From NCBI GenBank assembly GCA_016926475.1, contig JAFGON010000023.1:5910-69909 (forward strand): a stretch of 64,000 nucleotides of DNA, read 5' to 3'. The stretch comes from a candidate division WOR-3 bacterium. Its GTDB lineage: Bacteria; SDB-A. Shown piece by piece: positions 44,347 to 49,346 of the stretch. The notes under the pieces were generated by a model. That model saw only the letters and a program-made list of their open reading frames with translations, did not search any database and was not told where the DNA came from. How positions within the stretch are numbered: the first letter of the stretch is position 1; every line of letters begins with the position of its first letter. A program made the translations under genes and the position numbers.

Positions 44347-44357
44347 AGTTTTGTTTA
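44313..44357 (+). terminator. Terminator overlapping the helicase stop
   Basis: A perfect inverted repeat AGGCCCGTAA / TTACGGGCCT (44314-44323 / 44335-44344, one more pair outside) is followed by AAGTTTTGTTT. The stem lies in the last coding codons and the stop lies just after it. Confidence 0.75.
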
Positions 44358-45104
44358 TTCCGAAACTGTAAAAGTAATGCTCGTAATTTCTTCGCCTTCA
44401 CTGTCGCTGCTGAATAGTCTTAGATCATAAGAGCCGGGTTCATCCGGAGCGTAATACGTGAGGGTACCCTCGAGTTCTCCGTCGAGATAATTCCAGTCTA
44501 AATCGTATTGGTCAGCTTCTTCTTCATCGCCGTGGGCTACATCTGAAGGGATCAATCCTATCCAAGCGGAAGACTCAAGCCTTTGGGAAACGGTGAATTT
44601 GACTTCGATTTCTTCTCCCGGTTCAAAAACGTCTTTTTCGAGTTCTATCGTGGCGGTGACATCTTGCCTTTCCCCTGATACGGTGAAAGAGGCGTAGGTG
44701 ACTTCTTCGCCTTCGAAATCGCTGTCAAACATCCTTATGTCGTATTCTCCCGGTTCTACAGGAGCATCAAAAGTCACTTCGCCTTCGAGCTCTGTTCCAA
44801 TAAGATGATACTGGACGTCATATTCGTCGTTTTCCTCTTCGTCTCCGTGAGCGACTTCCGAAGGGATCAATCCAATCCATGCGTTGTCGTCAAATTCTTC
44901 AAGTGCAAGGTATTGGACAACAATTATTTCCTCGGGTGAATACACTTCTTTGTCGAGCTTGACAAAAGCTTCTTCTTGTACCGCGACAGTTGTGTCGGTT
45001 TTTGTGGTGTCTGTTGTCGGTTCTTCGGGTTTCTTGCTGCAGTCGGCAAAAAACATAGCGACGGCCATAAGAGCAGTCAAAATCAGGACCAGGGACCTTC
45101 TCAT
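44355..45104 (-). CDS. Lipoprotein with two tandem WIGLIP-type domains
   Basis: 249 residues; lipoprotein signal ending FFADCSKK with a Thr/Asp-rich linker. Two copies of an about 95-residue beta domain follow (residues about 48-143 and 150-248). Each reads F/VxLDKEVYxPxE ... AWIGLIPSxVAHGDEEExDxYD ... LEGxxTxxAPxEPGxYDxRxFxSDxEGEE. The paired acidic loop HGDEEE suggests metal binding (inference). The WIGLIP core resembles SKICH-like or CBM-like Ig domains. DNA of the two copies is also similar, indicating a recent internal duplication. Function unknown. Confidence 0.75.
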   Translation of the reverse strand: MRRSLVLILTALMAVAMFFADCSKKPEEPTTDTTKTDTTVAVQEEAFVKLDKEVYSPEEIIVVQYLALEEFDDNAWIGLIPSEVAHGDEEENDEYDVQYHLIGTELEGEVTFDAPVEPGEYDIRMFDSDFEGEEVTYASFTVSGERQDVTATIELEKDVFEPGEEIEVKFTVSQRLESSAWIGLIPSDVAHGDEEEADQYDLDWNYLDGELEGTLTYYAPDEPGSYDLRLFSSDSEGEEITSITFTVSE

Positions 45105-45169: not shown

Positions 45170-45787
45170 TTATTTGTCAGGTGTTTCTTTGAAAATGTCG
45201 AAAAGTTCTTTTATATCCGACATGTAAATTTTTACAACTTCATCTTTATCCTTCTTGAACCTGTTCTCGGAAAATCCAATGAAGTAGCTGTGAAAAATCG
45301 ACCTTATAACAACGTTCAGAAGATCTGCCCTCTTTTTGGGAATCCCGCAAAATTCTGCCGCCTTTTGAAAAGCCTGGCTTTCCAATCGAGTTGTTTTCGA
45401 TTCCATCAGCTTGGAAATGACATTAGGGGTGTTTTTTCCGAAATATGTAAAATTTATGAGCCTGAAAGCGTCTTTGTGTTCGAAAGCGTAATAAGCGATC
45501 GCCTTCCTAATCTGTTGAAACCGATCAAGCGGGGTTTCAAATACTACATCTTTTGTAAATCTTGCTATATATTCGAAAATATCATCCATGAACTTAAGGG
45601 CAACGTAGTATTTTAATTCGTGTATGTCTTTGAAATACGAATACAATGTCGCGTAATGGTATCCTGCAATATCAGCTACTTTTCTGACGCTTAAATACTG
45701 AATGCCTTCTTTTTCTATTACCTGACAAGCGGCATCTACAAAGTAACCTAATGTTCTCTTTTTTCTGATCTCCCTTTTTGACTCCAT
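45170..45787 (-). CDS. TetR-family regulator
   Basis: 205 residues. The N-terminal helix-turn-helix is clear (YLSVRKVADIAGYHYATLYSYF). The C-terminal domain is of unknown ligand specificity. It is transcribed divergently from the mini-gene transcript at 45910, and the palindrome AAACAATGTTT overlaps the -10 of that promoter, so it probably controls the mini-genes and possibly the amidohydrolase beyond. Confidence 0.85.
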   Translation of the reverse strand: MESKREIRKKRTLGYFVDAACQVIEKEGIQYLSVRKVADIAGYHYATLYSYFKDIHELKYYVALKFMDDIFEYIARFTKDVVFETPLDRFQQIRKAIAYYAFEHKDAFRLINFTYFGKNTPNVISKLMESKTTRLESQAFQKAAEFCGIPKKRADLLNVVIRSIFHSYFIGFSENRFKKDKDEVVKIYMSDIKELFDIFKETPDK

Positions 45788-45835
45788 GTATATATATTAT
45801 AAAAAAAAATCTTTTTGGTAAAGAAAAAAAACCCT

Positions 45836-45863
45836 TGACAAATAATCAAACAATGTTTAATAT
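45836..45863 (+). promoter_or_regulatory. Near-consensus sigma-70 promoter of the mini-gene transcript
   Basis: TTGACA (45836-45841), 16-base spacer, TAATAT (45858-45863). The palindrome AAACAATGTTT (45848-45858) touches the -10 and a second inverted repeat (GTTGT ... ACAAC) follows; both are candidate TetR sites. Confidence 0.75.
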
Positions 45864-45909
45864 TTAATTGTTGTTTTAATTACAACCGTCGTTTAAAAGG
45901 AGGAAGAAA

Positions 45910-46029
45910 ATGAAAGTTTTAAAGAAAAAGAAAATTAACGGCAAAAAAATCCTGAAAAAGAAAATCAAAGGACAAAAACCAATGACAGAAAGGTTTTACC
46001 TGTCGTGGAACCCTTTGTTTTTGTGGTGA
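45910..46029 (+). CDS. Lysine-rich 39-residue peptide, unknown function
   Basis: A 39-codon gene with an ideal AAGGAGGA ribosome site 7 bases before the ATG and a near-consensus promoter about 70 bases upstream. Residues 1-23 are extremely basic (KKKK, KKILKKKIKG) and the C-terminal 13 residues are aromatic and hydrophobic (ERFYLSWNPLFLW). Such a layout could be a cationic membrane-active or ribosome-binding peptide, a leader peptide, or a peptide precursor. I cannot assign a family. The next mini-gene begins 4 bases after the stop. Confidence 0.6.
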   Translation: MKVLKKKKINGKKILKKKIKGQKPMTERFYLSWNPLFLW

Positions 46030-46033
46030 AAAA

Positions 46034-46141
46034 ATGGATGAGAGAAAACTCGGTTCTTTGTCTTCGGTGGTAAAGTCCGTCGTTTCTTTTGACGAATCGA
46101 AGATAAAAGTGTTTGAAGATTTTTATATTCAAAGAATCTAA
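46034..46141 (+). CDS. 35-residue peptide, unknown function
   Basis: Begins at the ATG 4 bases after the previous stop; only a weak GGTG ribosome site, so translation is probably coupled. Composition is mixed and amphipathic (LSSVVKSVVSFDE; KVFEDFYIQRI). The stop lies 20 bases before a strong terminator hairpin. No family recognised. Confidence 0.5.
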   Translation: MDERKLGSLSSVVKSVVSFDESKIKVFEDFYIQRI

Positions 46142-46161
46142 AAAAGCGTATTTATTTTTCG

Positions 46162-46197
46162 CCGGCGAATTTATATAATAATTCGCCGGTTTTTTTT
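46162..46197 (+). terminator. Strong intrinsic terminator directly upstream of the amidohydrolase
   Basis: A 10-bp perfect stem (CCGGCGAATT / AATTCGCCGG, loop of 8) followed by eight T residues. It ends 16 bases before the amidohydrolase start, leaving no room for a separate promoter between them. It therefore either ends the mini-gene transcript or works as an attenuator. Confidence 0.9.
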
Positions 46198-46213
46198 CAA
46201 AATTGGAGAATTT

Positions 46214-47575
46214 TTGTTAGCGTTGAAAAATTGCATGTCAATAGCGACTTTCGACGGCGAAGAAAGAGAGCTGTCAAACCATGATATAATAGTTGAAGGC
46301 AACAAGATTAAAAAAATCTCCAAATCCCCTTCAATAAGTCAAGATTTTGATGGAGAGATCCTCGACTGCAGCAGCCACCTCGTCCTGCCAGGCTTTACAA
46401 ACACCCACCACCACATGTTCCAATCCCTCACAAGGAATTTAAAACAGGTACAAAACGCCAAGTTGTTCGATTGGCTGAAATTCCTATACGACAAATGGGT
46501 TAACATTGACGAGGACTGTGTCTATTATTCCACTCTTTTATGCTGCTCCGAACTGATGCTTACCGGATGTTCGGCTTCTTCAGACCACATGTACTTGTAC
46601 CCGCCGCAAATTTCAAAGAGTATACTCGGGGTTCAGTTTGAGGCGGCAAAAAAAGCGGGGATCAGGTTTTCCCCTTCCCGGGGAGCGATGACAAGAGGAA
46701 AAAGCGACGGCGGGCTCCCCCCCGATAAAATAGTCCAAAAATGGGATGTTGTTTTGAAGGACATGGACGATTCAATCTCAAAGTTTCATGATCCTTCTCC
46801 TTTCTCGATGAGCAGGGTGATATTGGCGCCGTGCAGTCCATTTACCGTCGAAGAAAACCTCATGAAAGAAACCGCCTCTCTCGCCAGGACCAAAGAAGTC
46901 ATAATGCACACTCATTTGGCTGAAACAAAAGACGAGGAAGAATACTGCATGGAAATCTACGGTAAAAGACCTCTCGGTCTTATGTCGGATCTTGGATGGC
47001 TTGGCAAGGATGTTTATTTCGCCCATGGAATATACTTCACAGAAGATGAATTGGATTTGCTCGCAGAAACAAACACAGGAGTCTCCCACTGTCCGACTTC
47101 AAATATGCGCTTAGGCTCTGGAGCTGCGAAAATCCAAAAGATGAAAGATCTAGGAGTCAGAATTTCACTCGGTGTCGACGGTTCTTCTTCAAACGATACC
47201 TCTGACATGCTCGCGGAAGCTCGAAACGCTTTGCTTCTCGCCCGAGTATTTGGAGGACCGGATGCTCTGACGGCAAGAGAAGTTTTACGTTTTGCCGCAA
47301 AGGGCGGCGCGCAGATGCTCGGTTTTGAAAACTCCGGTACTTTAGAAGAAGGTAAAGCTGCCGATATCGCAGTCTTTGATCTCGGCGGCATAGACAGGGC
47401 TGGATCTCTGTCTGATCCTGTCGCCTCTATTATCTTTACCGGTTTTTCACATAAAACCGCATACACAATTATTGACGGTAAAATCGTCGTGAGAAACGGT
47501 CAACTCGTATCAATAGACGAAAGACAGATATCGGAAAAGGTTAACTCTCTTTCAAAAAAACTCATCGAAAAATAG
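46214..47575 (+). CDS. Amidohydrolase, 8-oxoguanine deaminase/SsnA-like
   Basis: 453 residues from a TTG (a second in-frame TTG lies three codons on); TTGGAGAA precedes it. The metal-dependent amidohydrolase pattern is complete: HxH in GFTNTHHHMFQSLTRNL, His in MHTHLAETKDEEEY, His in FAHGIYF, and Asp in LGVDGSSSND. The sequence around TGCSASSDHMYLYP is typical of the 8-oxoguanine/isocytosine deaminase branch. It should deaminate a guanine-like base; exact substrate is inferred only. It follows the mini-gene terminator and converges on umuC. Confidence 0.85.
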   Translation: MLALKNCMSIATFDGEERELSNHDIIVEGNKIKKISKSPSISQDFDGEILDCSSHLVLPGFTNTHHHMFQSLTRNLKQVQNAKLFDWLKFLYDKWVNIDEDCVYYSTLLCCSELMLTGCSASSDHMYLYPPQISKSILGVQFEAAKKAGIRFSPSRGAMTRGKSDGGLPPDKIVQKWDVVLKDMDDSISKFHDPSPFSMSRVILAPCSPFTVEENLMKETASLARTKEVIMHTHLAETKDEEEYCMEIYGKRPLGLMSDLGWLGKDVYFAHGIYFTEDELDLLAETNTGVSHCPTSNMRLGSGAAKIQKMKDLGVRISLGVDGSSSNDTSDMLAEARNALLLARVFGGPDALTAREVLRFAAKGGAQMLGFENSGTLEEGKAADIAVFDLGGIDRAGSLSDPVASIIFTGFSHKTAYTIIDGKIVVRNGQLVSIDERQISEKVNSLSKKLIEK

Positions 47576-47588
47576 CATTAGCAAAATC

Positions 47589-48869
47589 TCAATCGCAGTA
47601 CACTACAGGCAGTTCATTCCAATTCGTCGTGTACCTCTTTGACAATTTTTTTCTTTTCATTTTCCAGGAATTATCAAATCCTGAAGAGGCGAAGCCCACG
47701 GTTTCTCTTCCCATTTTTCGGTTTATTTCGTCTATGGTTTTTATTATTTTATTTTTGGATTGGTCTTCTTCTTCGAAAATCGACTTGCTGATCTCATCCT
47801 TTTTGATGATTCCGGTAAAAACAACCCCTGCTTTTTTATATTTGTACCCACTCCTGAATATGTTCTCCAAAGCTTTATGAGAATGTTTTATTAGTGAGGG
47901 GGTATAGTTCGTCGGGTTTTTAATCCTTACATCTGACCAGTTCGCGTATTGTTCTTCGTCCTCGTTGAACCTGTCGGTAGTTATGTAAACAGTCATCGAC
48001 AACGGGACCGCGTTTTGGCTTCTCAGCTTGACAGCAGCCAAAGTAACGTATTGTGAAAGGGCGTTTTTCAACTCTTCAATTTTCTCTACAGTTCTGCCGA
48101 AAGATCTTGAACAGGCCATGCCCTTTTTGTCCGATGGCATGTTTTCAATGTCAATGCATGGCTCTCCGTTCAGTTCGAGTAAGGTTTTCAATCCAACTAC
48201 CGTTAAATTTTTCAAAATCCATTCTCTGTCAGCATTTTTTAAATCCAAAGCTGTAAAAACACCTTTTGAAGCCAGCTTTAAAGATTGCTTTGCTCCGATT
48301 CCCCAGACATCTTCGGTTCCAAGGTTTTGGAGAATTTTGTCGATTTTCTCAAATTTATATATGTCGACAGCACCAGAACCGTTTTTTTTTGCTTCTTTTG
48401 TAGCTATTTTCGACAACGTCTTTGTCTCGGCTATTCCAACTGAAACAGGTATTCCTGTCCATTTCAAAACAGTCTTCTTTATTTTTAATCCCAGGTCTAA
48501 AAGCCTTTTTTCTTCAAATCCTTCAAGGAGGACAAAGGCCTCATCTATCGAATATACTTCAACATCAGATGAAAATTGCCTCAGGGTCTGCATTACCCTT
48601 ATAGACATGTCTTGGTAAAGTTCGTAGTTGGATGAAAACACTTTCACTGAGTTCTGTTCTATGAAGTTTTTTATCTTGAAAACCGGAACTCCCATTTTGA
48701 TTCCCAGCGCTTTTGCCTCTTCAGACCTTGAGACCACACAGCCGTCGTTGTTTGAGAGGACGACAACTGGCACGCCTTTCAAAGATGGAGCGAAAACCCT
48801 CTCGCAGGAGACGTAAAAATTATTGCAGTCCACGAGGGCTATGGGAGGATGATACAAAGGGCTTTTCAT
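47589..48869 (-). CDS. umuC: DNA polymerase V catalytic subunit (Y family)
   Basis: 426 residues, typical UmuC length. Palm motifs are intact: [16 protein letters not shown] at the N-terminus and the catalytic [12 protein letters not shown]. The helix-hairpin-helix ([16 protein letters not shown]) and a C-terminal little-finger region follow. It performs error-prone lesion bypass with processed UmuD. It begins immediately after the umuD stop. Confidence 0.95.
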
Positions 48870-49310
48870 TCAAGCCAATGGATGAATCACGTAAGTCACA
48901 ACGCCCCAGACCTCAAAATTCATTTCAGGTTTTACTTCAATGGGCTTGTATTCAGCGTTTTCAGGGACAAGATATATTTTTTCTTTCTTTTTGTGTATCC
49001 TCTTGACTGTAAATTCCCCGTCGATTACAGCGATTACAACCCTGTTGTTGCCTGGTTTTTCAGCCCTGTCGACGATGAGGATGTCCCCTGAATTGATACC
49101 CGCGCCTACCATGGAATCGCCCGAGACTTTGATAAAAAAAGTCGCCGATGGGTGTTTTATCAGAAATTCGTTTAGGTCGAGTTTGTTTTCGGCGTAATCT
49201 TCAGCCGGAGAAGGAAATCCAGCGGATATTTTGACTTCGAAACATGGAATTTTTATTTCTGCTTTTTTTTCGAATGAAAACATTTCTGTGACTTTGATCT
49301 CTTTTCTCAT
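48870..49310 (-). CDS. umuD: UmuD-like S24 autoprotease subunit of DNA polymerase V
   Basis: 146 residues from the ATG at 49310 (MRKEIKVTEMF). The Ala-Gly self-cleavage site is in VKISAGFPSPAEDY, the catalytic Ser in VSGDSMVGAG and the Lys in GEFTVKRI. The start is chosen because a promoter-like TTGCTT/TAGAAT pair ends 7 bases before it; an upstream in-frame ATG lies inside the promoter. No recognised LexA box is visible, so SOS control is unproven. Confidence 0.93.
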   Translation of the reverse strand: MRKEIKVTEMFSFEKKAEIKIPCFEVKISAGFPSPAEDYAENKLDLNEFLIKHPSATFFIKVSGDSMVGAGINSGDILIVDRAEKPGNNRVVIAVIDGEFTVKRIHKKKEKIYLVPENAEYKPIEVKPEMNFEVWGVVTYVIHPLA

Positions 49311-49317
49311 TGGATTA

Positions 49318-49346
49318 ATTCTATTTGTTTGAGGGTCTAAAAGCAA
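49318..49346 (-). promoter_or_regulatory. Promoter giving a near-leaderless umuDC mRNA
   Basis: Minus strand: TTGCTT (49346-49341), 17-base spacer, TAGAAT (49323-49318), then seven bases to the ATG. There is no ribosome site. Confidence 0.5.

Follow-up and report, generated by a model that had tools for sequence, protein, structure and literature searches.

Three species of one genus have a locus in common in which a TetR-family repressor gene, a promoter palindrome, two mini-genes, an intrinsic terminator and a gene for a predicted 8-oxoguanine deaminase occur in the same order. We tentatively favor, with slightly less than even confidence, a reading of this locus as a TetR-repressed small-protein operon whose terminator would pass part of the transcripts into the deaminase gene. 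The window analyzed here is a 64 kb stretch of contig C23 from a 2.15 Mb genome in 106 contigs (G000). The phylum is represented in the genome collection by four genomes: G000, its congeners G001 and G002, and G003, which belongs to another genus of the same family. The mini-genes were compared among G000, G001 and G002, and all of the comparative evidence rests on these three; in G001 the locus is split by a contig break, and the two contig ends have about 20 nt in common. Each of the three species available for the genus keeps both mini-genes before the same deaminase gene. The case for the locus is made by this conservation and not by consensus scans. Within the window, such scans alone were barely above shuffles, both for promoters (8 found, 6.6 expected) and for terminators (6 found, 4.2 expected), and the background statistics for promoter and terminator scores were drawn from the window only.

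The first mini-gene, ORF1 (45910-46029, forward strand), was originally predicted as a 39-codon, lysine-rich gene behind a perfect ribosome site, and it was confirmed with 39 codons in all three species. Its Shine-Dalgarno sequence, AAGGAGGA (45897-45904, forward strand), retains GGAGG in both congeners. The encoded protein has a lysine-rich N-terminus and ends in LSWNPLFLW before a TGA stop codon. The proteins of the two congeners are 49% and 41% identical to that of the window, and the three align without indels. Residues common to all three are M1, K2, K8, K12, K13, K17, S32, W33, N34, P35, L36, F37 and W39, with isoleucine or leucine at position 38 and TGA following, so that a tail of the form [LF]SWNPLF[IL]W-stop is near-invariant behind a variable, lysine-rich N-terminus. 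Over codons 32-40 the variable columns are distributed 2/0/6 by codon position, the C-terminal changes being almost all synonymous, and this pattern shows that the ORF1 protein is under selection. The proportion of synonymous differences (pS) is about 0.7-0.9 over the whole ORF, which is near saturation. The nonsynonymous proportion (pN) is 0.39-0.52 for the N-terminal part but 0-0.13 across the final eight codons. The low pN of the tail beside a saturated pS identifies ORF1 as coding. Because the tail value is below the pN of 0.16-0.22 for the N-terminal 200 codons of the deaminase, the constraint on the tail is no weaker than that on the enzyme. Each species has 12-13 lysine or arginine residues among the first 30, and the alignment indicates that the N-terminus is constrained mainly in charge. 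A structure model built on two sequences (mean pLDDT 73, pTM 0.34) consists of a single helix over residues 2-33, with pLDDT 83-86 over residues 1-20.

Conservation right to the stop codon at a fixed length is like that of leader peptides, and it counts against the operon model. ORF1 could instead be a regulatory leader whose nascent chain would halt translation at UGA by means of its SWNPLF(I/L)W tail, with the lysine-rich part in the exit tunnel. Such a stall would answer translation stress or a small molecule, possibly a purine or a similar base, and would alter ORF2 translation and terminator read-through, hence deaminase expression. We regard this as the main rival to the operon model, possible but doubtful. 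The invariant tail at the stop behind a variable N-terminus agrees with it, as does the fixed length of ORF1 without indels while ORF2 has them. The shared TGA stop (3/3) carries no information in this respect and was discarded as a signal, as TGA closes 47% of the window's long ORFs.

ORF2 (46034-46141, forward strand), which the original prediction described as a coupled 35-codon gene, starts 4 nt past the ORF1 stop and ends in TAA; it has 35 codons in the window and 38 and 37 in G001 and G002, respectively. The core FDESKI..F is kept in the three species as [FY]DES[KR]I..F, with indels elsewhere, and the core codons are 56% invariant compared with 20-24% in the rest of ORF2. This core sits mid-protein and not at the end, which, together with the coding signal of ORF1, argues for the operon model. 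At the nucleotide level, GAYGAATCGARGATA is nearly unchanged at the core (46091-46105 and congener equivalents) despite near-saturated synonymous sites elsewhere, and a 5-bp hairpin, TCGAA..TTCGA, is retained there in the three species. This stretch inside ORF2 may serve as a signal at the level of RNA or DNA.

The terminated transcript of about 330 nt could itself be a regulatory small RNA, possibly with a dual function, which we consider very unlikely. A discrete promoter and terminator are present, the G000 leader folds somewhat better than shuffles (z -2.4), and the third positions of GAA, TCG and ATA in the ORF2 core are unchanged despite near-saturated synonymous sites. Against a small RNA, the 5'UTR is just 33% invariant across the three species, and changes in ORF1 track the protein and not the RNA. 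The structured RNA that the original prediction had considered for the leader was not found either: the window has no Rfam match, and the consensus structure of the whole leader in the three genomes has no convincing covariation outside the terminator.

Searches for further copies delimited the range of the mini-genes. An ORF1 profile run against 386 whole genomes matched the three genus genomes only (E 1e-21 to 5e-23); among the 383 genomes outside the genus nothing credible was found, two weak fragment matches containing in-frame stops. The exact pattern WNPLFxW-stop was recovered from about 85,000 species genomes in G002 and in three chance matches in the frames of other genes; this pattern misses relatives with an altered tail, and the restriction to the genus concerns this motif. 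No mini-genes were found in viral contigs or, by blastn, in plasmids. Their occurrence in three genomes only weighs against the operon model. Neither peptide had been assigned to a described family, and searches of Pfam, NCBIfam, PHROGs and PADLOC likewise returned no family match. The best chance match, IMP2_N in Pfam (E 0.05), was under the cut-off and was rejected, as were the PDB profile matches of ORF1, which were weak and composition-driven.

The mini-genes are preceded by a sigma-70-type promoter (45835-45863, forward strand) with a conserved A-tract upstream, read from the sequence as TTGACA (45835-45840), a 17 nt spacer and TAATAT (45858-45863). This is the near-consensus promoter of the original prediction, with its start one base before the claimed 45836. 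Its score of 11.9 compares with a 99th percentile of 11.4 for 230-nt segments of the window, and the block of A-tract and promoter is 71% invariant across the three species. Next to it, in the opposite direction, lies the gene for a 205 aa TetR-family repressor (45170-45787, reverse strand). Its divergent placement beside the mini-genes, noted earlier for the window, holds in all three congeneric genomes, and domain and fold agree on the family: the TetR_N domain (PF00440) scores 29.8 bits against a cut-off of 24, the AlphaFold model is all-helical (pLDDT 85.4), and the best PDB matches found with this model by Foldseek are all of the TetR family (probability 1.00). Homologues are 72% (G001), 64% (G002) and 42% (G003) identical, and in a search of 98 genomes matches were limited to the four genomes of the phylum.

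A palindrome, AAACAATGTTT (45848-45858), had been reported to overlap the -10 element; it does so by one base only and lies mostly in the -35/-10 spacer. A wider reading makes it a near-palindrome of 17 bp (45845-45861, without strand) and gives a candidate TetR operator, ATCAAACA-A-TGTTTAAT with core AAACNNNGTTT, within the spacer and the -10. The palindrome, of the form AAACxxxGTTT, is found at the mini-gene promoter in all three genus genomes. In G003 (contig C111) the TetR homologue is divergent from an imidazolonepropionase-like amidohydrolase (amidohydrolase-2), with a shared promoter region and no mini-genes, and there the palindrome is present as CAAACTATGTTTA. The core CAAACNRTGTTTA has nine copies in the four genomes. 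One copy per genome is at the promoter adjoining the TetR gene; the other five comprise four within coding ORFs and one intergenic copy (G003, contig C7), with no recognised promoter there. Promoter-located copies therefore occur only beside a TetR gene, G003 included, and from this distribution we infer that TetR binds the AAACxxxGTTT site. Because the palindrome marks the mini-gene promoter in 3/3 genomes of the genus and the promoter of a different amidohydrolase in the sister genus, the mini-genes are very probably under the control of the divergent TetR. Amidohydrolase-2 was considered as a second regulon member in the genus and rejected: its orthologues in G000 and G001 have another gene, and no TetR gene, directly upstream and no operator match. 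Divergence from the target, a promoter palindrome and the TetR fold are features in common with other divergent TetR repressors, whereas the first targets in this locus are orphan mini-genes.

The gene downstream (46214-47575, forward strand, TTG start) encodes a 453 aa amidohydrolase, which by its score is a predicted member of the 8-oxoguanine deaminase family NF006055 (NCBIfam). Against a cut-off of 532 bits, the proteins of G000, G001, G002 and G003 score 557.9, 549.4, 547.2 and 586.8, respectively. It matches the PDB structures 3hpa (E 1e-126) and 7ww2 (E 1e-119), and alignment with both places the amidohydrolase metal and catalytic motifs NTHHH, HTHLAE, AHG/AHC and GVDGS. Relatives of 8-oxoguanine deaminase also take isocytosine and guanine (PMC6186785). 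The enzyme is not unusual for its family (NF006055; PDB 7ww2); what differs is the control region. Tail to tail with the deaminase gene are genes for UmuC (with DUF4113) and an S24 UmuD-like protein (47589-49346, reverse strand). The arrangement is the same in G003, and the oxidised-base enzyme and the translesion polymerase pair thus remain neighbors.

In G003 the order is lipoprotein, PLP-dependent gene, deaminase, UmuC and UmuD, with the PLP gene overlapping the deaminase start. The order in the genus matches, except that the TetR gene and the mini-genes replace the PLP gene, which is absent from the genus genomes. This replacement suggests that the deaminase of the genus is probably without its older promoter and relies on that of the mini-genes. 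With one outgroup for comparison, either arrangement may be the older. The PLP-dependent, cysteine-synthase-like protein of G003 (contig C73, 949-2409) has 486 aa and scores 91.5 bits with TIGR01139, far under the cut-off of 351. The lipoprotein of the window (44355-45104, reverse strand) contains two tandem MG2-like domain repeats (about 'SAWIGLIPSDVAHGDEEE'), and its G003 orthologue contains one.

The intrinsic terminator (46162-46197, forward strand) was confirmed as the predicted 10-bp GC-rich stem with eight T residues. The hairpin (46162-46189) has a calculated energy of -15.7 kcal/mol, and the T-run (46190-46197) ends 16 nt before the TTG start at 46214. Counterparts in G001 and G002 have stems of -20.6 and -17.7 kcal/mol with a T-rich tract, and two pairs of the stem have two-sided changes. 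In all three genomes the terminator begins 17-20 nt past the ORF2 stop, the spacer itself being 17% invariant. Classical attenuation calls for pairing between part of the leader and the 5' arm of the terminator. Here, such antiterminator pairing was not above shuffles that preserved base composition only and not dinucleotides (51, 66 and 37% of the shuffled leaders paired as well), and the position of the best pairing differed from genome to genome. A reading of the terminator as a classical attenuator is therefore not supported; its position is that of an ordinary operon terminator behind ORF2, and its original description as attenuator-like was an over-reading. The operon model is favored by this constant position in 3/3 genomes, the lack of an antiterminator and the lack of a conserved internal promoter. 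A strong terminator without a conserved promoter ahead of the deaminase gene also agrees with a regulatory leader, against which stand the missing antiterminator pairing and the distance: the terminator lies 132-143 nt past the ORF1 stop in the three genomes, with the conserved ORF2 in between. Lack of pairing and distance lower the probability of a classical attenuator, but translation of ORF1 may act indirectly, and a direct effect of its nascent peptide is also possible. The original prediction had left a choice between a regulatory leader and a peptide system under TetR control; conserved coding mini-genes and very probable TetR control stand, and classical attenuation is not supported.

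In all three genomes, the stretch from the end of ORF1 to the deaminase gene lacks a conserved or strong promoter. The best scores there are 7.6, 7.0 and 8.1, where segments have a median of 6.1 and a 90th percentile of 8.6. The earlier claim that no promoter fits between terminator and amidohydrolase is thus upheld at the level of consensus, but a weak TTTATT-17-TATAAT is possible in the window genome, where the -35 is poor and the loop of the terminator contains the -10. The original prediction had the amidohydrolase depend on read-through; such dependence is likely, since no internal promoter is conserved and since the genus lacks the gene that precedes the deaminase in the sister genus. 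The weak promoter over the loop could drive the deaminase in the window genome, which counts against the operon model. The locus might then consist of two separate units: mini-genes under TetR control that end at their terminator, and a deaminase gene served by a weak or unconventional promoter of its own over the terminator or ORF2. Strong terminators in 3/3 genomes, the internal scores and a TATAAT within the loop in both G000 and G001 are in favor of two units. However, these scores are ordinary, the candidate positions differ per genome, the loop of G002 is without TATAAT, and the 16 nt from T-run to start in G000 leave no room downstream, and we judge two units to be unlikely. Both this arrangement and the small RNA are less likely than the operon or the leader.

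Precedents for a regulatory leader are TnaC and SpeFL (PMC8429421), MsrDL (PMC10314930), BmrB (PMC4191407) and CruR (PMC9426467). TnaC and SpeFL arrest at termination, and as in the present locus a short ORF with conserved residues stands ahead of a catabolic gene, making arrest at the stop codon a possible parallel. Here, in contrast, the leader is separated from the enzyme by ORF2, itself conserved, and by an intrinsic terminator, and no common motif was seen; TnaC also uses Rho and a rut site (PMC8429421), while arrest by ORF1 is putative. MsrDL and BmrB resemble the locus in that the regulated gene is preceded by a small translated ORF together with an intrinsic terminator. MsrDL stalls at its stop and by-passes the terminator, which its ribosome directly obstructs (PMC10314930), and BmrB acts through alternative structures (PMC4191407), whereas the present locus has neither that proximity nor alternative pairing. 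CruR (DUF2946), a copper-responsive uORF, is likewise the first gene of its operon and has a conserved C-terminal arrest motif with fixed spacing within the peptide, but its CXXC sensor, RAPP arrest motif and Rho route are its own, and the motifs are absent here (PMC9426467). A novel type of arrest peptide, in which the ORF1 tail would stall the ribosome at the stop codon in answer to a purine-type base and gate read-through into the deaminase gene via ORF2, as a translation-level sensor atop a TetR switch, seems improbable.

Under the favored operon model, TetR would bind the AAACxxxGTTT site and block the single strong promoter until released by a ligand, which may be a heterocyclic base or a compound derived from it. 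The de-repressed promoter would yield an abundant mRNA of about 330 nt. Its strong ribosome site would drive translation of ORF1, to which that of ORF2 would be coupled. One product would be a cationic and probably helical peptide of 39 residues that carries the fixed SWNPLF(I/L)W tail, the other a companion of about 35 residues, both acting in trans as small proteins. Most transcripts would end at the terminator behind ORF2, and a read-through fraction would give a lower level of deaminase mRNA. The terminator would then be no switch but a constant step down in expression from plentiful mini-proteins to a scarce enzyme. TetR binding, read-through, the roles of the peptides and the inducing signal are thus putative steps.

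Two mini-proteins without a family, far under the usual gene-calling limits, nevertheless occupy the same place in three species. If ORF1 is a nascent-chain sensor, a base-type ligand would join the short list of signals read in the ribosome tunnel. If both act in trans, they would be two new small proteins linked to the metabolism of oxidised or unusual bases in a poorly known phylum.
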